Source: Pontibacter populi (GTDB lineage: Bacteria; Bacteroidota; Bacteroidia; Cytophagales; Hymenobacteraceae). Taken from it: a stretch of 64,000 nucleotides of DNA. Made by a program: the position numbers and the translations under genes. Each line of letters opens with the position of its first letter. Positions within the stretch are counted from its first letter, which is position 1. Where the stretch lies: NCBI RefSeq assembly GCF_019336435.1, contig NZ_JAHWXQ010000004.1, forward strand, positions 186,001-250,000, given 5' to 3'. Under the pieces are notes generated by a model that was given only the letters and a program-made list of their open reading frames with translations, had not been told where the DNA came from and did not search any database. Shown piece after piece: positions 54,623-62,184 of the stretch.

Positions 54623-54696
54623 GGTCACGTAGCTCAACTGGATAGAGCATCTGACTACGAATCAGAAGGTTAGGGGTTCGACTCCCTTCGCGACCA
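54623..54696 (+). tRNA. tRNA-Arg (anticodon ACG)
   Basis: 74 nt folding as a full cloverleaf: acceptor GGTCACG / CGCGACC (one A-C mismatch), D stem GCTC/GAGC, anticodon stem TCTGA/TCAGA with loop CTACGAA (ACG), variable AGGTT, T arm AGGGG TTCGACT CCCTT, discriminator A at 54696. CCA is not encoded. Its 3' 15 nt lie in the attachment site of the integrated element. Confidence 0.95.
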
Positions 54697-54698
54697 CA
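54682..54698 (+). other. attL: tRNA-side attachment site of the integrated element
   Basis: 17 bp CTCCCTTCGCGACCACA, identical to 62131-62147 in direct orientation. It covers the T stem/acceptor 3' end of tRNA-Arg. The two copies bound a 7,449-bp unit. Confidence 0.92.
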
Positions 54699-54711
54699 CT
54701 TATTTAAAGAA

Positions 54712-54746
54712 AAGGCTTGTAAATCAGACGATTACAAGCCTTTTTT
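54712..54746 (+). terminator. Element-borne terminator behind tRNA-Arg
   Basis: Stem AAGGCTTGTAA / TTACAAGCCTT and six T. It is just inside the element and would end the tRNA transcript; compare the chromosomal hairpin at 62150-62184. Confidence 0.85.
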
Positions 54747-54755
54747 CATTTCTGC

Positions 54756-54773
54756 GGTACACTATACGGTACA
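54756..54773. promoter_or_regulatory. Paired GGTACA sites, left end of the element
   Basis: GGTACA at 54756-54761 and 54768-54773, 12 bp apart start to start, inside the left end. The same pair with the same spacing occurs near the right end (61989-62006). Probable recombinase or excisionase arm sites. Confidence 0.6.
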
Positions 54774-54821
54774 CTTTGTAAAGATTTACATAAATTTCGC
54801 TTTAAAGCAATCGTATTACAT

Positions 54822-55079
54822 TTAAGAATCAAGTCCACTTGAATTCTCTTTTCTTAGTTTTACTCTTCTAAATAATTCAAAAGTATCATATCCTAGTACT
54901 GCCAAAATAAAAGTCATTTCTCTCGGTTCTAACATTATTGTTTGATTTTCAATATCTTGAATATAGCTTAAAGAAGATTGAATCTTTAAAGCTAAATCGT
55001 TTTGCGAAAGTCCTTTTTCCTTTCTTAGCTTTATAAGCTCATCTATCATTAAATCGTAGTAATCATATCCGTTTCCCAT
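54822..55079 (-). CDS. XRE-family HTH regulator of the element
   Basis: An 85-residue protein when started at the ATG at 55079 (MGNGYDYYDLMIDELIKL); a longer frame begins 87 bp earlier with unconvincing sequence. The helix-turn-helix KLRKEKGLSQNDLALKIQSSLSYIQDIENQT (about 18-48) is a standard XRE domain. It is the gene nearest the tRNA end. It could control the element's own genes. Confidence 0.75.
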   Translation of the reverse strand: MGNGYDYYDLMIDELIKLRKEKGLSQNDLALKIQSSLSYIQDIENQTIMLEPREMTFILAVLGYDTFELFRRVKLRKENSSGLDS

Positions 55080-55297
55080 AAACAAATATGATGAATGCCT
55101 CTGATTAACGCAAAAGAGGATACCACAATTTAGATGCAGCACCCTCTTAATCTTAATATCCAGCATTCTTTGTTGATGAAGCTGACGAATGATTAAAAAT
55201 TGATCAGTATGGGAGCATAAAGTGTGTTGATGTTATCTCCCGCTATTGTAGAACTTATCTCCCGCTATGTTTCTCCTACTAAATTTTTAATAACTAA

Positions 55298-55693
55298 TTA
55301 TTCCCTGATATATGAATCAATTGTATGAAAAGCTAAAAGGATATTTTCTCCTATCCTATAACTAATCATTGGATATTCATTTTCTGAATAGCTCCCTAAA
55401 ACTTCAATTATTACCAGAGTTTTCTTACCATCCTTCCCACTATGCGCAGTCCAGTATGTTATCATATTTTCTTCCTTAATGCTTTCACTCTTAAGAATTT
55501 TTAAATCATATTTTCTCCCAGCCCATTGTAATGATATTGTGCTTTGTGTAAAGCTGAATACAGCTTTCTCTTCGAATTTTTCTTTTCTAAGTAAATCGAG
55601 ATTGTAATCAGAGACATAGTAGATAGTTTTTTGCGCATTTGCTGAACCAATCAAAATGAAAGTTAACAGCAGAATCAAGTAAAACTTTTTCAT
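55298..55693 (-). CDS. Exported protein of the element, unknown
   Basis: This 131-residue protein has a clean signal peptide (ending ANAQ). The mature ~110 residues are beta-rich with alternating charge and no motif I recognise (KTIYYVSDYNLDLL, later LVIIEVLGSYSENEYPMISYRIG). It may be accessory cargo. It is divergent from the second XRE gene, about 100 bp away. Confidence 0.7.
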   Translation of the reverse strand: MKKFYLILLLTFILIGSANAQKTIYYVSDYNLDLLRKEKFEEKAVFSFTQSTISLQWAGRKYDLKILKSESIKEENMITYWTAHSGKDGKKTLVIIEVLGSYSENEYPMISYRIGENILLAFHTIDSYIRE

Positions 55694-55794
55694 TTTCGTT
55701 TATATTGTTTGTTTACACTATAAATATACAAACTACTATATCTATAACACATATATGTGTTAATAAAACTTCTTTAATCTCACCTTCTTGCTTT

Positions 55795-56031
55795 GTGACC
55801 AAAGTGAGAAACGAGCATATTATAAAAGCTGTGGGTGAGAACATCCGCTTATTAAGACTTTCTAAGGGCCTTTCTCAAGAAGAAATCGCATATGCAGCAG
55901 ACATTCCAATAAATCAGATAGGAAGGATTGAAAGGGGTGAGATCAATGCTACAGTAAGTACTTTGTATGTTATTTCTAAAGCTCTTGACGTCCCTTTAAC
56001 TTCGCTTGTATCAGTTGAAGAGCAATCTTAA
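55795..56031 (+). CDS. XRE-family regulator (controller-like)
   Basis: A 78-residue protein if the GTG at 55795 (MTKVRNEHIIKAVGENI) is used; the preceding codons look non-coding. A single XRE domain, NIRLLRLSKGLSQEEIAYAADIPINQIGRIERGE with the C-terminal ATVSTLYVISKALDVPLTSLV, fills the protein. It is the size of C proteins that time expression of restriction genes. It is the only plus-strand gene in the element and is 3.4 kb from the restriction enzyme, so the link is only a suggestion. Confidence 0.75.
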   Translation: MTKVRNEHIIKAVGENIRLLRLSKGLSQEEIAYAADIPINQIGRIERGEINATVSTLYVISKALDVPLTSLVSVEEQS

Positions 56032-56373
56032 CTTGCATTAATACTTTTAAGCGTTTTTAAGCGTTTTAAGCATCTCGATAAGTATAATTAACATTGTTTG
56101 CTTTTATCTTAATTTATGACCGCTAAAAATGCGTTATTAAGTAGTATTTGCTTCTCTATTATACTTCTCAATGTTATTTGCTATAATATTAATCTATCTA
56201 ATAGCTTTAACATCTTTTATCTACCCATTATAACCTAATAACACCTTCTATTACCTATCTAATCCTTTGTTAATTCTTCTCTCTTACTTATTAAACTTTT
56301 GCCCATCTCTTCAAACCTTTACACTTCCTTTATTTCAAAGCTTTTCAACCCATTCTAACAAACATTTCTACCC
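56032..56373. other. G-depleted non-coding tract with short tandem repeats, next to rep
   Basis: It starts with three imperfect direct copies of TTTTAAGCG (56044-56071). From 56161 to about 56380 the plus strand has almost no G: 1 G against 17 C in 56221-56280, and 2 G against 17 C in 56281-56340. There is no gene. Strand asymmetry this strong beside a Rep-like gene is compatible with an origin region, but it is not proof. Confidence 0.6.
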
Positions 56374-57126
56374 TTAACATACATTTCGCAATAAATTGTC
56401 GGGTAATGTATACCTTAAATTTGAGTCAAGTGATGACCTCAGCTCTTCATATACTCCTATGCTTTCTGCCTTTATTTTGCACTTTGGTATAGCAGATTGT
56501 ACTAAGTCGTTTAAGTAATAAACACTATTCACATAGAAGCTTTCTTTTGTAAGTTCTGAAACTAAAGCTTCGTGCTTTAAATGCCTTTTAAACAAATAAT
56601 TTGCACTTTGCCCTAATTCAGCTTTACTAAACAACCTTGCTTCTATTCTTAACAAATCTTCTTTATCATAAAGAGATAATACCCTTGCAGAATCTTTCAA
56701 TTCTGCAGCTGTATGGTAATAAATACCTTTCTTCTTCAAGTTACATCCTTTGAAGTATGGAGGATTCTTTAAATGCTTAACATAAGCGCTTGCTCTGATA
56801 GAACTTTTAATATTTGTTGTTATATCAAGCCTGGAATTATGAAACTTCGAAAAATCTATACCTAGTATTTCCGCCATCAGCCCGACAGCTTCTAAAGTTT
56901 CGTTTATACCTGCAAGTTCTATATTACATCCGTTAAATAAGAGCTTCGGTATACTGAATGAAACAATCGTCATACCATTGGGAAATGACAGATGTATCTC
57001 GGCACTATTGTAAGTGATTTTACCACTTTTATTACGCTTAAATTCCTGCTCAAACCTATCACTAAGAATTTGACTATAGTCTTCGTATTGATACGCCCTT
57101 AACGTATCATATCCATAAATATACAT
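56374..57126 (-). CDS. Putative replication initiator (phage/plasmid gene II/CRI-like)
   Basis: This 250-residue protein has a layout resembling the gene II/X and Cri/RstA replication proteins of filamentous phages and satellites. A region SFSIPKLLFNGCNIELAGINETLEAVGLMAEILGIDFSKFHNSRLDITTNI corresponds to the S-x-x-K-x-x-x-G...N...LGID...R-D block. YHTAAELKDSARVLSLYDKEDLLRIEARLF parallels the KxYDKxxE...RxEx segment, where the tyrosine-type nicking site lies in that family. No HUH motif is evident. The gene is tandem with the HTH gene. It may nick a double-strand origin; the assignment is tentative. Confidence 0.5.
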   Translation of the reverse strand: MYIYGYDTLRAYQYEDYSQILSDRFEQEFKRNKSGKITYNSAEIHLSFPNGMTIVSFSIPKLLFNGCNIELAGINETLEAVGLMAEILGIDFSKFHNSRLDITTNIKSSIRASAYVKHLKNPPYFKGCNLKKKGIYYHTAAELKDSARVLSLYDKEDLLRIEARLFSKAELGQSANYLFKRHLKHEALVSELTKESFYVNSVYYLNDLVQSAIPKCKIKAESIGVYEELRSSLDSNLRYTLPDNLLRNVC

Positions 57127-57135
57127 ATACAGAGA

Positions 57136-57172
57136 GTGGCATCAGCAGCGTTTAAGCTACTGATGCTCTTTT
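57136..57172. other. Hairpin between rep and the HTH gene
   Basis: GCATCAGCAGC / GCTACTGATGC around a short loop (57139-57166), then a T run on the plus strand although both flanking genes are on the minus strand. It is within 15 bp of the rep start. It could be a regulatory stem, a plus-strand terminator or a nick-site hairpin. Confidence 0.6.
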
Positions 57173-57207
57173 TACAGTTCTTGAAATTGATTGATTAAAT
57201 GGGTGTG

Positions 57208-57531
57208 TTAATACGGAAGTTCGTCCGTTCGCCCATTAAGAAATGTATCTAACTGTTCTGCTGTGTATAAGCACTTTCTACCTGACTGCATCGGCACCAG
57301 AATGCCCTGCACTTTCCAGTTATGCAAAGTAGTAAGTGATACGTTAAGCTTTTCCGCAGCTTCTTTTCTTGTGTAGAGTTTTTGCTCATTTATAGAGCTT
57401 TTAACTGCACTTAATACATACGGAAGTACTTTCTCCAACTCTACAGCAAATGTTTTACTCATAAGCTCCAAGAGCTGTTGTGAAGTAAGATGTACTAATA
57501 ATGTGTTTGTGTTTAATTGTTCTGGGAACAT
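57208..57531 (-). CDS. HTH_17/excisionase-like DNA-binding protein
   Basis: A 107-residue protein from the ATG at 57531 (MFPEQLNTNTLLVHL). The C-terminal ~55 residues form a winged-helix of the excisionase/MerR-like group (LYTRKEAAEKLNVSLTTLHNWKVQGILVPMQSGRKCLYTAEQLDTFLNG). This is the common HTH found between integrases and rep genes in Bacteroidota elements. It probably acts as excisionase or as regulator of rep. Between it and the integrase lies a perfect 9-bp inverted repeat (57699-57707 and 57735-57743, GGTAAGCTT). Confidence 0.8.
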   Translation of the reverse strand: MFPEQLNTNTLLVHLTSQQLLELMSKTFAVELEKVLPYVLSAVKSSINEQKLYTRKEAAEKLNVSLTTLHNWKVQGILVPMQSGRKCLYTAEQLDTFLNGRTDELPY

Positions 57532-57698
57532 AATAAATTGATTTTTATTTGCCCCGATCAATAAGAACCTATGTTTTAAACAGAGTTCTTACTCTTTACA
57601 GTCTTTACTATTTACAGTATAGGCTCCAACCCTTGTATGCCTATGATTTGCTGAAGCTTTATTATCAAGTTCAGCTTATGTTACGATCTCTTAATTAT

Positions 57699-57743
57699 GG
57701 TAAGCTTTGTATGATATAACTCAGCTTTAATAATAAGCTTACC
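57699..57743. promoter_or_regulatory. 9-bp inverted repeat GGTAAGCTT next to the integrase stop
   Basis: Perfect arms 57699-57707 and 57735-57743, 27 bp apart, adjoining the stop codon of the integrase and upstream of the HTH gene. It could be an operator for the HTH protein or a weak terminator. Confidence 0.4.
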
Positions 57744-59107
57744 TAAGCTACTAACTTCATTATTGCAGACTTATCAGCGAGTTTTTTAAACGCTTCAGCT
57801 TTGTCTTTTGAATTTGAAAAATCTATATATCGTTGAAATGACTTATAGTCTGTATGACCTGAACATTCCATAACCAATTGTACTGGCAACCCTGCTTTAA
57901 GTGCTCTTGTTATAAATGTCCGTCTCATACAGTGAGATGTAAGCATCTGCCATTTGGGTAATACATCAATAATAACTTCTCTACCACCCTGTGTTTTCGT
58001 CTTATTTACCTTATCTGTAATCTTAGCTCTTCTAGCAATTACTTTAATAAGCTTATTAAATTCTTGTTTCGATATTTTTGTAAGCAAAGATTCGATTTGC
58101 TCGTTGTACTTTTTAATAATTGCCACTGCTTCATTACTTACAATGGGTACTGAAAGCGGCTTTGAACGATGTTTTATAGTTTTCTCGGGTAAATACTCGA
58201 TGAAGTAGTTACCGTCCTTATAAGCTATATTACTATGCTTTAAAACCAGTAAATCTGATACCCTGGCACCTACCGCAATACCAAGCACAAAGATGTCTCT
58301 TACCCGTTGCAACTTTTCGTCATCACCTAGATTTACATCTAATAGTTGCTGGTACTCATCATCATTCAAAGTAATTATCTGTTCCTTCTCAGCTTTCATT
58401 ACTTTAAAATTTTTGTAAGCTGTATTACTATGTAATCCTTCCTGCTCTGCCCAGCTAAGAAATGCTTTTATATTTTTAACTGTACACCCTATCGTACTAT
58501 CATCAAGCCCCACAATAGTTTTACCTTTCTCTGTGTAGAAGTATTCATATGTAAAGTAGCTTACGAAATCATTATAGAACCCTTTTGTCATTGAGTCAAA
58601 AGTTAACACTACCCTTCTGACGTCCTGATATATTTCCAGATGCTTTACTGCACAGTTATACTTCGCTACCGTTGATTTACCTATTCTAGCACTCGGAGAT
58701 GCTTTAAGATGTTTTGCTTCTTTATAATCTTGCTTTAAGTAATCAAAAAATGTTTTCTCCTTAATTAAGCTTTTGTTTAAGTGCTGCTTTACCTGTTCTC
58801 TGAATTGTTGAAGTGATAAATGGATACCTTTTGTTTTGTTCTGGATGTATAATCCTTCAATTTCTTCTTCTAAATAATCCAGATACTTATTGTGATGTAC
58901 TTTTGAAGATTGCGATTTAAACCGTTGCTTTTGCTTTCTGTCATCCCACTCTAAGGATGTAGCATTAATTCCAGTACCATAAACAAACGTTTGCCCATCA
59001 TACCGCATTCTTAATTCTACATAGGTCCTTACATTTTGCTTTGCCTTCTTTGTTTGTGTTGTGTCGCCTTTGCTCGCTTTGCCCTTTAAATAAAAGTTGA
59101 TTTTCAT
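57743..59107 (-). CDS. Tyrosine recombinase (integrase) of the element
   Basis: This 454-residue protein has an N-terminal arm-binding region, a SAM-like core-binding region (about 115-235) and a catalytic domain. All catalytic residues are present: Arg282 (GARVSDLLVLK), a lysine in the EKTIKHRSK beta turn, His392 and Arg395 (SHCMRRTF), His418 (SGHTDY) and the nucleophile Tyr427 (QRYIDF). It should integrate the element at the tRNA-Arg 3' end and, with the HTH protein, excise it. It resembles the integrases of Bacteroidota mobile elements. Confidence 0.94.
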   Translation of the reverse strand: MKINFYLKGKASKGDTTQTKKAKQNVRTYVELRMRYDGQTFVYGTGINATSLEWDDRKQKQRFKSQSSKVHHNKYLDYLEEEIEGLYIQNKTKGIHLSLQQFREQVKQHLNKSLIKEKTFFDYLKQDYKEAKHLKASPSARIGKSTVAKYNCAVKHLEIYQDVRRVVLTFDSMTKGFYNDFVSYFTYEYFYTEKGKTIVGLDDSTIGCTVKNIKAFLSWAEQEGLHSNTAYKNFKVMKAEKEQIITLNDDEYQQLLDVNLGDDEKLQRVRDIFVLGIAVGARVSDLLVLKHSNIAYKDGNYFIEYLPEKTIKHRSKPLSVPIVSNEAVAIIKKYNEQIESLLTKISKQEFNKLIKVIARRAKITDKVNKTKTQGGREVIIDVLPKWQMLTSHCMRRTFITRALKAGLPVQLVMECSGHTDYKSFQRYIDFSNSKDKAEAFKKLADKSAIMKLVA

Positions 59108-59329
59108 ACATTAAATTTTTTGTGATGACTCTTAAACGTTCTTTTCGGAAAAGTGGCAATAGAATTATACATCTAAGTTTTTGTGACAAAAAATTCCACT
59201 CCTTTTTCAAAAAGAGTAAAAAATGACACTCCTAAAACACTTTCCTTGATCGTAATTAACCCCGTTGATTAAGTTTGAGCAACTATCATACAAATAATTG
59301 ATATCCTAAAGAGGAGTAGTGCATTGCAA

Positions 59330-59366
59330 ACAAAAATGCCTGAGAGCAACCAAGCTCCCAGGCATT
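59330..59366 (-). terminator. Terminator of the restriction enzyme gene
   Basis: Stem AATGCCTGGGAGC / GCTCTCAGGCATT (one mismatch) and a T run on the minus strand. Confidence 0.85.
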
Positions 59367-59393
59367 AAATCATGTAAATTTTATCCTTACTAT

Positions 59394-61913
59394 CTAATTC
59401 AGTAATGATTTTGATTCTACTAATAATAGATCAGCTTCATTAAGTTTGGCAAGATAATTCAGTTCAATACTTCTTAAAGCTTTTGAAATCTCTTGTTGCT
59501 CCTTAATGTCTGATTTTAAGTCAACTACAATTCTATTTACTTGTTCAGGTGTAAGCTCAATCAAGCCAGTTGATCCAGTAAATAATCTAGATACTTGTAT
59601 TGCTCCAAATCCATTTCTAAGATAATCTGCTAAATAATAAGGATCAATTTTAGATAGATCAGGCCTTATGATAGTTACATGTCCATCTGCAACTGCCGGG
59701 TGTTCTAAGTCATACACTGCACATTTACCTAATGTCCCATCACCTGTTGAAGCTAATACAACATCTCCTTTCCGAACAAAACTCAAATTACAAGGCTCTC
59801 CAGTAACCTTTTCTATCTCTACTCCTTTTTCTAGTAATTCATCATAAATAGCTTTTTCAATCCAATCTGCTCCTTTTGTTATAATTTTGCCGAATTTACT
59901 AATGTTACTTCCTGCTTTTATAACAAGAGCATAACCATCTACTTCGTCTACATAGTTTTCTGCAGAAGGGCTTTTCCCTCGTTGAGTAGGGATTGTATTA
60001 AGTTCAGCTACAGTTAAGTTACCAGATTCACTTAATTCTTCTATCTTTTTTCTCGTTTCGCTGTTCCAATATTTATAATCAAATCTATGAGTATAATCAT
60101 TAACTAAGTCTTGCACATCTACATCAAAAGCTTTCCAATTGTAACCTTCTCTTGTAGAAGAACCTGATTGATCCAAAAGCAGTGTGCTTATCTCATTTAA
60201 AAGCCTATCTAAGTTAAATCCTCTAATTTTATCTCCAGAACCTTGATAACCCAAAGACTTGAATTCACAAACTGTAGTTTTGTATACATCTTCAAATTCT
60301 TCATCTGGCATATCCCGTTTTTCAAGATATAATAAGCTTGATTTTACATTGATCTTATTTGGCTTAAATGTTTCTCCAGGAAGACTAATTGCTGCTATTA
60401 ACCTGCAATGTTTTAATATATATTTTCTTAAGCTTGCTGCTGAATCAGTATTTAATACTCCTTCATCAATTACAGTACATATCTCTCCACCAGCATTTGT
60501 TGCTTTGATCATTTTCTGGATAAATAAATGCTGACCTTTCGTAGAAGATATGTCATACTGTAACAGATCATTTGCAGTCAAAGAATCTGCCTCAGATGTA
60601 CCAAAAGGGGGATTTGTAAGTATTAAATCACAGTCTGAGAATGTAGTAGACCAATTTGTTGCCTTTGAGCTTAAGCTATCCTCATGTTGAATGTTTGTAT
60701 GACCATCGCCTGCTATTATCATATTCATCTTGGCAGAAGCAGCAACACCTTTATTTGCGTCTGAACCATAGAATGTCCTACGTTTGATAATTTCAACGGC
60801 ATTATCATATGTACTTCTGTTAATCTTCCTTCCCTTAAGCTTATCTTGAAGCTGAATTAAAGCATCTTGAAGAAGAAAAACTAAGAACCCACCTGTACCA
60901 CAAGCCGGATCAATTATTTTTAAAGGAGAGCCTGAGAGTACAGAAGTTACTATCTTTTCTCTACCAACTAAAGCGAGCATACATTGAACAAGCTCACGCG
61001 GGGTAAAATATTGCCCGAGCTTTTTACCTTTTAATGTTGCTCTAACGAAGTATTCAAAAGCTGCACCTTTAGAATCATAACTGCAATCAGTAAATGATAC
61101 TGAAGCTAAACTTTTAACAATATTATAGAATGTCCTAGGATTATTAAGTTTTATACCTTCCTTCAATACATCACCATAAGAAGTTCTATCAATTATCGCA
61201 TCTATCATTGATAGGATTGCTACCTTAACTTGATCAGCTTCTCTTACAGGCTTTTCTGCCAATTCATAGAAACGATAAGAATATGGTAACTCAAAATCAT
61301 CTTCATTATCATTCTTTTCTTCTAACAGCTTAAGAAACAACAACTTAGAAAAATCAGCAAAAGCATTATCTTCATCTTTCTCTATTTTTCTTATCATACT
61401 ATGATTCTTGTAAAACAGAGCATTAAGTTGTCTGAGAGGTAGGCCAGGGCGATAAGGAAGACTACTATCGCTAGATAAAGGTATAATTACTGCATCAGGA
61501 TTTGACTTTAATGTTCTAAGAGCAATTTTAAGTTGTTCTTTTGATGGAATCTTATCTAAAGGTTTCCCATCCCAAAGTATTCTATTTTTATTTTTTGTAT
61601 TAAAACACTGTATTTCAATACCATTCGTTACCACTACAAATGGAACATTTATTTCTGACGATCTTGCATATGATATTGCTTGATCTCTGTCTTTACTATT
61701 TAATTTTTTAGATATCTTTTTTGCCTCAATCAGAAAAACAGGCTTAGGCTTTCCTAAGTTTACCAATACATCTATATACCCTTTCGAGTAACGCTCAGCA
61801 GTTACAACCGCTGTTTCAAAGTCAAAATCGCTTTTAAGATCGTACCCTCTTCGTTCTAAGTAAGGCAAAATCTTCTTTATTACTGTTTCAGTTTCCGTTC
61901 TTATACTCGTCAT
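59394..61913 (-). CDS. Single-chain restriction-modification enzyme (type IIG-like): nuclease, N6-adenine methylase, specificity domain
   Basis: An 839-residue protein with three parts. Residues 1-140 form a PD-(D/E)xK-type nuclease as in HsdR N-terminal domains, with Asp48 in YIDVLV and Glu63-x-Lys65 in LIEAKK. Residues ~165-580 form an N6_Mtase domain with GQYFTPR (300-306), SAM motif DPACGTGGF (335-343) and catalytic NPPF (434-437). From ~625 to the end comes a single HsdS-like target recognition domain with a helical tail (KGDVVLASTGDGTLGKCAVYDL, EQQEISKALRSIE). No helicase is present. The gene is therefore a type IIG/IIL-like enzyme that cuts without ATP, the probable anti-phage cargo. 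Transcription is toward the integrase. Confidence 0.9.
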   Translation of the reverse strand: MTSIRTETETVIKKILPYLERRGYDLKSDFDFETAVVTAERYSKGYIDVLVNLGKPKPVFLIEAKKISKKLNSKDRDQAISYARSSEINVPFVVVTNGIEIQCFNTKNKNRILWDGKPLDKIPSKEQLKIALRTLKSNPDAVIIPLSSDSSLPYRPGLPLRQLNALFYKNHSMIRKIEKDEDNAFADFSKLLFLKLLEEKNDNEDDFELPYSYRFYELAEKPVREADQVKVAILSMIDAIIDRTSYGDVLKEGIKLNNPRTFYNIVKSLASVSFTDCSYDSKGAAFEYFVRATLKGKKLGQYFTPRELVQCMLALVGREKIVTSVLSGSPLKIIDPACGTGGFLVFLLQDALIQLQDKLKGRKINRSTYDNAVEIIKRRTFYGSDANKGVAASAKMNMIIAGDGHTNIQHEDSLSSKATNWSTTFSDCDLILTNPPFGTSEADSLTANDLLQYDISSTKGQHLFIQKMIKATNAGGEICTVIDEGVLNTDSAASLRKYILKHCRLIAAISLPGETFKPNKINVKSSLLYLEKRDMPDEEFEDVYKTTVCEFKSLGYQGSGDKIRGFNLDRLLNEISTLLLDQSGSSTREGYNWKAFDVDVQDLVNDYTHRFDYKYWNSETRKKIEELSESGNLTVAELNTIPTQRGKSPSAENYVDEVDGYALVIKAGSNISKFGKIITKGADWIEKAIYDELLEKGVEIEKVTGEPCNLSFVRKGDVVLASTGDGTLGKCAVYDLEHPAVADGHVTIIRPDLSKIDPYYLADYLRNGFGAIQVSRLFTGSTGLIELTPEQVNRIVVDLKSDIKEQQEISKALRSIELNYLAKLNEADLLLVESKSLLN

Positions 61914-61988
61914 TCCACACCTTTAAAAATTCCATTAAAATTAGCATTTCAATAAAGATTGTGAAAGACATATTTAAGAAATGTTTAC

Positions 61989-62006
61989 GGTACATCCTGC
62001 GGTACA
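61989..62006. promoter_or_regulatory. Paired GGTACA sites, right end of the element
   Basis: GGTACA at 61989-61994 and 62001-62006, spaced exactly as the left pair. Confidence 0.6.
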
Positions 62007-62130
62007 ACTTTACTGACAGAAGTGAATCTTAAAGATTAAGCTTGATACAGCTTTGTATAATAAACGCTGTGATAACTGATAATTGAATGCTGATGATTCA
62101 ATAAGATATACTATGATAAACCTGCTCCTG

Positions 62131-62147
62131 CTCCCTTCGCGACCACA
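62131..62147 (+). other. attR: second copy of the tRNA 3' end
   Basis: 17 bp identical to 54682-54698; it lacks the rest of the tRNA. Confidence 0.92.
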
Positions 62148-62149
62148 AT

Positions 62150-62184
62150 AAAAGGCCTGTTTACGAAAGTAGACAGGCTTTTTT
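62150..62184 (+). terminator. Original chromosomal terminator of tRNA-Arg, displaced by the element
   Basis: Stem GCCTGTTTAC / GTAGACAGGC, six T. It follows attR as it would follow the tRNA in an empty site. The remaining DNA to 62598 is AT-rich and shows no gene. Confidence 0.85.

Follow-up and report, generated by a model that had tools for sequence, protein, structure and literature searches.

A unit of 7,449 bp (about 7.4 kb) in the Pontibacter window, by which we mean the whole 64-kb stretch of DNA analysed here, is AT-rich, with a G+C content of 0.33 compared to 0.46 in the rest of the window. It is bounded by two exact copies of a 17-bp repeat, CTCCCTTCGCGACCACA, at 54682-54698 and 62131-62147, which cannot be extended beyond 17 bp and of which the left one forms the 3' end of tRNA-Arg(ACG), just as the original prediction had placed them. 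The features of the element and its borders are the following:

54623..54697, plus strand: tRNA-Arg(ACG), the integration target (ARAGORN; Rfam tRNA, 66 bits)
54682..54698, plus strand: left attachment repeat, 17 bp, of which 16 bp are common to the empty sites
54710..54746, plus strand: terminator-like hairpin within the left end, in place of the tRNA's own terminator (from a reading of the sequence), with a counterpart in P. indicus
54755..54773, plus strand: left CGGTACA repeat pair, probable integrase arm sites
54822..55166, minus strand: XRE-1, an HTH_3 protein (HTH_3, 1.4e-9)
55298..55693, minus strand: protein of 131 aa whose start resembles a signal peptide; conserved in the sister element
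55795..56031, plus strand: XRE-2, an HTH_3 regulator (HTH_3, 7.6e-13), conserved in the sister element
56374..57126, minus strand: Rep-like protein with putative catalytic Tyr153, a divergent relative of Phage_CRI/G2P initiators
57139..57166, minus strand: hairpin upstream of rep (11-bp stem, 6-nt loop), conserved in P. indicus
57208..57561, minus strand: HTH_17 protein, probable excisionase (HTH_17, 7.1e-9; phrog_66 excisionase, 1.3e-7)
57743..59107, minus strand: tyrosine integrase with a SAM-like domain (Phage_integrase, 2.3e-13)
59394..61913, minus strand: cargo, an 839-aa predicted single-chain restriction-modification protein
61988..62006, plus strand: right CGGTACA repeat pair, probable integrase arm sites
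62131..62147, plus strand: right attachment repeat, 17 bp, an exact match to the left one
62150..62183, plus strand: terminator to the right of the element, found directly after the tRNA in three empty-site relatives

All genes that had been predicted for the element (recombinase, HTH protein or excisionase, Rep-like protein, XRE pair and restriction cargo) are open frames, most of them with family matches. The 131-aa protein was missing from that list; it matches no family and has only sub-threshold Pfam matches. XRE-2 probably starts at the GTG at 55795 and not at the TTG at 55705, because of its counterpart in P. indicus. The left-end hairpin does not appear in the output of our terminator scan because its loop exceeds the scan's loop limit of 8. 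The motif stretches GARVSDLL, SHCMRRTF and GHTDYKSFQRY were found in the integrase, and the match of the HTH_17 protein to TIGR01764 (excise) falls under the cut-off of that model. The window contains exactly two copies of the motif CGGTACA-N5-CGGTACA, one at either end of the element (expected: 0.00, from 100 shuffles), and such pairs are present at both ends of the P. indicus element as well; they probably serve as integrase arm sites.

Among its relatives, empty sites had been anticipated, and the tRNA-Arg site is indeed empty in three of 20 long loci. Each of these carries 16 of the 17 repeat bases, and in the three relatives the tRNA is followed at once by the sequence with which the right flank of the element resumes. 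The same order of int, HTH and rep genes at tRNA-Arg with a different cargo, also foreseen, was found in one case, an 8,876-bp element of Pontibacter indicus LP100, which is the sole sister element that we found. The proteins of the two elements are 81% (Int), 52% (HTH protein), 61% (Rep), 78% (XRE-2) and 43% (131-aa protein) identical, and no counterpart of XRE-1 was matched in the sister. At the DNA level, int is 83% identical between the two, compared to 71% for the host gene dedA, which points to horizontal gain. No case was seen in which these genes lacked att repeats or occupied a fixed, non-mobile position.

The cargo combines a nuclease-like part (HSDR_N_2, 16-123), an N6 methylase (N6_Mtase, 279-534) and a specificity-like part (Specificity_I match, 712-820) in a single chain, which would correspond to a Type IIG architecture; its best PADLOC model is PDLC03317 'MTase_II', with 998 bits over residues 2-829. 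At E 1e-40, a search of 50 genus genomes gave no other match to the gene. The cargo differs in P. indicus, in line with the proposal of an exchangeable defence slot: judged from these two elements, the position between int and the right end appears to be exchangeable and to hold restriction-modification genes. Each of the two cargoes resembles a single-chain restriction-modification enzyme, but their architectures differ. In the more distant elements at tRNA-Leu, the cargo is not always restriction; it is a restriction system in one of them and looks otherwise in others.

As expected, no conjugation or structural genes came to light: neither mating-pore genes nor phage structural, packaging or capsid-remodelling genes were recognised among the seven proteins of the element (Pfam, PHROGs, NCBIfam), nor were relaxase families, including MobP (Pfam, NCBIfam), apart from one weak HTH cross-match of XRE-1 to MobT, at 12.5 bits versus a cut-off of 600. 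Rep itself has no Pfam match and none to the MobT or Rep_trans families (Pfam, NCBIfam). By profile comparison, it is related to Phage_CRI (hhalign 96.9%, E 1.9e-10), more weakly so with a narrower profile (89.7%, E 1.9e-6). Residues R99, Y153, K155, R160 and E162 are present in all 13 Rep sequences and D101 in 12 of them, so that an R-x-D / Y-x-K / R-x-E pattern is retained. This pattern resembles what is reported for rolling-circle initiators and for MOBT relaxases, as in motifs I, III and IV of one of the latter, RelSt3 (PMC6499999). No clear equivalent of the first acidic motif is seen in the set, with C replacing D7 in five of the 13. PDB sequence searches with Rep and with profile A6 gave no matches, and one with profile A5 gave two at chance level. 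We consider Rep a divergent relative of the G2P-type (Phage_CRI) proteins and likely a DNA-nicking replication protein.

The hairpin upstream of rep is a candidate nick site or leader structure. The best hairpin beats all 60 base shuffles in only two of 13 rep upstream regions, those of the window and of P. indicus; it is equalled by one of 60 shuffles in L037, by four in L036 and by at least 11 in the other regions. Folded as DNA, the hairpin reaches a z of -2.70 in the window (one of 200 shuffles as good) and of -2.04 in P. indicus (seven of 200). Based on these shuffle and fold statistics, we hold it as a candidate origin only. TTAAGCG-type repeats near 56045 were dropped, as they are not retained as repeats in P. 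indicus.

In our judgement, the locus is likely to be a complete, compact integrative element, plasmid-like and of a helper-dependent kind. In the mechanism that we propose, Int and the HTH_17 protein, the latter as directionality factor, would integrate the element into the 3' end of tRNA-Arg and excise it from there, by means of the 16-17-bp core and the paired arm sites at both ends, and the left end would supply the tRNA with a replacement terminator. XRE-2, plus XRE-1 in the window element, would hold the element quiet. After excision, Rep would nick the circle through Tyr153 to start rolling-circle copying, and the same nick may allow a co-resident conjugative element to move the element as single-stranded DNA, while the exchangeable restriction-modification gene would protect the host and thereby favour the element. 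TraM, a Bacteroidota-type conjugation gene of the helper type, was matched in 24 of 50 genus genomes, including P. indicus, which favours this explanation; that the window's own genome gave no match speaks against it. We know of no TcpA coupling protein from Bacteroidota. This, together with the involvement of TcpA in the few cases where an initiator-type protein is known to mobilize an element, as given in one review (PMC5704250), counts against the explanation we prefer. So do the weaker Rep link obtained with the narrower profile, the lack of a clear match for the first acidic motif and the finding of a single sister element.

It is conceivable, but unlikely, that the element is a TLC-like satellite of a filamentous (ssDNA) phage, in which Rep would supply single-stranded copies for packaging by a helper phage. 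Its small size, its lack of transfer genes of its own and the kinship of Rep with Phage_CRI/G2P proteins would fit this, and TLC-type satellites are likewise small chromosomal elements with an initiator of the G2P/CRI type. The TLC element of Vibrio, a filamentous phage satellite, however, integrates through the host Xer at dif and has no integrase of its own, whereas the Pontibacter element has its own tyrosine integrase, an HTH protein and a tRNA target, and no helper inovirus marker in its genome: Zot (PF05707), a rough marker that also matched in control genomes (five of 14, for the most part from archaea and thermophiles), had no match there, although a helper could be located elsewhere. 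Rep had no match in phage and plasmid records at E 1, Int gave matches below 60% identity only, both in plasmid (12 records) and in phage sequences (45 records), and scans of viral contigs with Int, Rep and alignment A2 confirmed no relative. As no phage structural gene was recognised on the element beyond weak HTH cross-matches between the HTH_17 protein and terminase small subunits (best 2.2e-4), and Zot is not matched, a phage satellite is not supported, and of the two natures originally suggested, satellite or plasmid-like, the latter is the better fit.

We find it similarly improbable that this is a plain, integrase-borne restriction island, spread by transformation or transduction and Int, with Rep as a regulator or relic. 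The absence of a TraM match in the own genome would suit such an island, as would the facts that we infer the activity of Rep and that an AlphaFold2 model of Rep, built from the window and P. indicus proteins, gave no usable fold (mean pLDDT 33); yet Rep is 61% identical to its counterpart in the sister element and 35% to that in G004, is accompanied there by the HTH protein and Int, and has conserved putative catalytic residues. Very improbable is a remnant that shrank from a larger conjugative element at this tRNA and lost the genes for transfer. It would be favoured by a second copy of the tRNA-Arg end (44-51 bp) in 16 or more of the 50 genus genomes, in 12 of them on the same contig and mostly at a distance of tens of kb, so that larger elements probably use the site, and by an int-less piece that adjoins the P. 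indicus element. Against it, the window element has two intact ends and an intact integrase frame, and the sister element, comparable in size, shares its core genes and has no recognised transfer genes; with the sister, one relative that is equally compact and has the same ends is already at hand.

For the complete, plasmid-like element that we favour, we found no named family of this make-up in the open-access literature, where a description under other words may exist; no named Bacteroidota family with this gene order had been recognised originally either. In contrast to tailed-phage satellites of the PICI/P4 type, it has no recognised packaging or capsid-remodelling genes. Comparable to it are the Pontibacter tRNA-Leu elements that we found (L037, L085-L089), which are likewise compact, tRNA-targeted and of varied cargo, and combine int, an HTH protein and a Phage_CRI Rep, but belong to other integrase and Rep clades, use another tRNA and do not always carry defence genes. 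Mobilizable Bacteroides elements of the NBU1/NBU2 type are also integrated Bacteroidota elements with a tyrosine integrase and the need for a helper conjugative element, but encode MobP relaxases (PMC5704250), whereas no relaxase family was found here.

The same review offers a close parallel, in streptococcal non-canonical IMEs that have a relaxase resembling rolling-circle initiators and of which 35 of 118 also lack a coupling protein (PMC5704250). Like these, the Pontibacter element is small, without a mating pore, and pairs a tyrosine integrase with a probable directionality factor; as read from its sequence, it has its own integration and excision genes and site-specific att ends, and one initiator-like protein may both replicate and mobilize it. 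It differs in its Bacteroidota host, its single-chain restriction-modification cargo and its initiator, which is of the Phage_CRI/G2P type and not of the MobT/Rep_trans, Rep_2, PHA00330 or Viral_Rep families named in that review. More tentatively, and as a possibility that we would not yet call probable, Bacteroidota may harbour a class of minimal integrative elements that rely on a single divergent G2P-like nickase, both as plasmid-style replicator of the excised circle and as relaxase for piggy-back transfer, and whose slot near the right end takes single-chain restriction-modification enzymes swapped between elements. In our reading, the element is a Bacteroidota counterpart to initiator-type integrative elements, which are mainly described in Firmicutes (PMC5704250), and best in Streptococcus. 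Its ends are defined, its site is found empty in relatives, and it offers a putative catalytic tyrosine and a natural exchange of cargo at a single site, suggesting that restriction systems can travel on units of less than 9 kb and providing a small case for how elements without pore or capsid spread.

Inserted in a tRNA-Arg(ACG) gene of the window is a real, intact-looking integrative element of 7,449 bp, with a G+C content of 33% compared with 46% in the remainder of the window. The source genome measures 4.3 Mb in 11 contigs. The site and the element comprise the following features:

54623-54697, tRNA-Arg(ACG)
54682-54698 and 62131-62147, exact 17-bp repeats bounding the element
54822-55166, minus strand, XRE-1
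55298-55693, minus strand, 131-aa protein with a signal-peptide-like start
about 55795-56031, plus strand, XRE-2
56374-57126, minus strand, Rep-like protein (Rep)
57208-57561, minus strand, HTH_17 protein
57743-59107, minus strand, tyrosine integrase (Int)
59394-61913, minus strand, restriction-modification protein (cargo)

None of the seven proteins could be assigned to a phage structural, relaxase or conjugation family; the only hits of that sort were weak and due to HTH motifs, linking the HTH_17 protein to a terminase small subunit (2.2e-4) and XRE-1 to MobT (12.5 bits, cut-off 600). About 2 kb to the right of the element (62200-64285), including the start of a long frame that runs from about 62640 off the window, had no match among the right flanks of relatives examined.

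A long match to the dedA-tRNA-Arg unit was found in 49 of the 50 genus genomes, the window's own included; the remaining genome (87% complete) yielded short tRNA-like matches only. In 47 of the 48 other genomes the match stops at most five bases from the tRNA end (query 864-869), so that the left end of the window's element does not follow there, the exception being Pontibacter indicus LP100. Directly 3' of the tRNA, three of 20 long loci carry the window's right flank (G323, 95% identity over 59 bp; G302, 91% over 57; G334, 87% over 62) and have 16 of 17 repeat bases in common with the element; we take them as empty sites. The remaining long loci have different sequence after the tRNA.

P. 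indicus carries a sister element of 8,876 bp in the same tRNA-Arg, with five genes in the same order and orientation, whose products are 81% (Int), 52% (HTH protein), 61% (Rep), 78% (XRE-2) and 43% (131-aa protein) identical to ours; XRE-1 has no match there. Its stretch between int and the right end encodes two proteins, one a type IIG enzyme of 1,062 aa (REase_MTase_IIG, 423 bits), the other an SLFN_AlbA_2 protein. The restriction-modification proteins of the two elements align mainly in the methylase domain, at 23% across 267 residues, and the window's cargo gene was found at E 1e-40 in its own genome alone among 50 genus genomes. At E 1e-70, the integrase lineage was confined to these two of 204 family genomes, with at most eight candidates scored per genome. 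The original prediction of a compact mobile element at tRNA-Arg with an exchangeable slot for defence cargo is borne out by the empty sites and the cargo-swapped sister. As int is more similar between the two genomes than dedA (83% versus 71% DNA identity), and closer relatives have empty sites, these comparisons point to horizontal gain. The 131-aa protein, kept in both elements, matches no family; a role in exclusion or immunity would be a guess.

The ends of both elements are built alike. The 64-kb window contains CGGTACA-N5-CGGTACA twice (expected 0.00), once near each element end, and the P. indicus locus contains it twice as well. In both elements the left pair is offset from the left core by 74 and 86 bases. 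The repeats of the right pair precede the right core by 142 and 130 bases in the window and by 143 and 131 bases in P. indicus. We read these pairs, on the model of other tyrosine integrases, as probable integrase arm sites. Between them and the left core, both elements have a terminator-like hairpin, missing from the terminator scan list because its loop exceeds the permitted length. Another hairpin (57139-57166), just upstream of rep and nearly unchanged in P. indicus, is a candidate nick site or leader structure. Adjoining the P. indicus element (L054:8167-10225) is a second left end, with an att core bearing one mismatch, a terminator-like hairpin and a repeat pair of N4 spacing, followed by an OLD/AriA-like ATPase gene; no second right att copy was found, and it is an int-less remnant.

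Across the tRNA-Arg 3' junctions (L006-L035, L055, L057, L058, L091-L106), the tRNA end seems to be a hotspot for integration in the genus, with several different downstream sequences that often have a direct-repeat pair of their own. Of 49 junctions, those of the window and P. indicus among them, 47 were readable; in 28 of these a pair of 9-mers alike in at least eight positions lies just inside, 11-13 bp apart (periods 10-14 allowed), against 2.75 expected from base shuffles. This figure is descriptive and not a test, since the genomes are mutually related and the shuffle preserves base composition only. In at least 16 of the 50 genomes the tRNA end is present again as a copy of 44-51 bp at 98-100% identity, which in 12 genomes lies on the same contig. 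One locus at this tRNA (L056, genome G301), with two att-core copies 13.7 kb apart, is an element of another kind.

A genome of the same taxonomic order, G004, has Int (43% identical), Rep (35%) and the HTH protein (34%) amid other genes, with no tRNA in the 19.9-kb stretch examined. In six genus loci (L037, L085-L089), tRNA-Leu(TAA) adjoins int, an HTH protein gene and a Phage_CRI-type rep; in five of them 13-20 bp of the tRNA end recur exactly 5.8-9.4 kb away, a repeat of 13 bp being weak evidence alone, and none was found in the stretch examined of L037. As cargo, L037 carries a complete type I restriction system together with the candidate defence gene PDC-S26, and ORF translations from others look like acyltransferase-type proteins. 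These loci are separate compact elements with varied cargo, and the int/HTH/Rep kit is therefore more general than the cargo class.

As a single query, Rep had no match in Pfam, PHROG or PDB, and a chance-level hit only in NCBIfam; structure prediction gave no usable model. Matches to Phage_CRI (PF05144) above its cut-off occur in 15 of the 50 genus genomes, but in neither the window's genome nor P. indicus. A profile of six divergent Reps (A6), compared with one of seven Reps from Phage_CRI-bearing loci (A5), gave 96.9% probability over 142 columns (E 1.9e-10, single comparison); a narrower profile of three Reps (A2) gave 89.7% (E 1.9e-6, single comparison). Rep as a single protein matched in 3 of 291 order genomes. 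Profile A6 matched in 4 of 395 genomes of the phylum, and in the three other than our own the frames are 314-335 aa long. Profile A2 matched in 20 of 204 family genomes; most of these matches are weak and fall in longer frames like those of Phage_CRI.

The most economical reading is a plasmid-like element that would excise, nick itself and borrow transfer. The window's genome has no match to PF12508 TraM; P. indicus has one, and its presence in 24 of 50 genus genomes means that possible helpers exist in the genus. PMC5714925 and PMC11389934 provide background on initiators doubling as relaxases and on helper-dependent elements. Among streptococcal IMEs, 118 of 144 carry initiator-related relaxases, and the few known mobilizations by initiator-related proteins involve the coupling protein TcpA, according to PMC5704250 (section 12). 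The weakest step of the reading lies here, where a Bacteroidota VirD4-type system might serve in place of TcpA.

In a joint alignment of the 13 sequences of A6 and A5, R99, Y153 (the putative catalytic tyrosine), K155, R160 and E162 of Rep are kept in all 13 and D101 in 12. In the MOBT relaxase RelSt3, according to PMC6499999, D177 belongs to motif I, K254 and the catalytic Y252 to motif III, and E280 to motif IV. The acidic residue of motif N' has no clear counterpart in Rep, the D7 column being cysteine in 5 of 13 sequences. By order and pattern, without alignment to RelSt3, the Rep residues resemble motifs I, III and IV as given there (PMC6499999).
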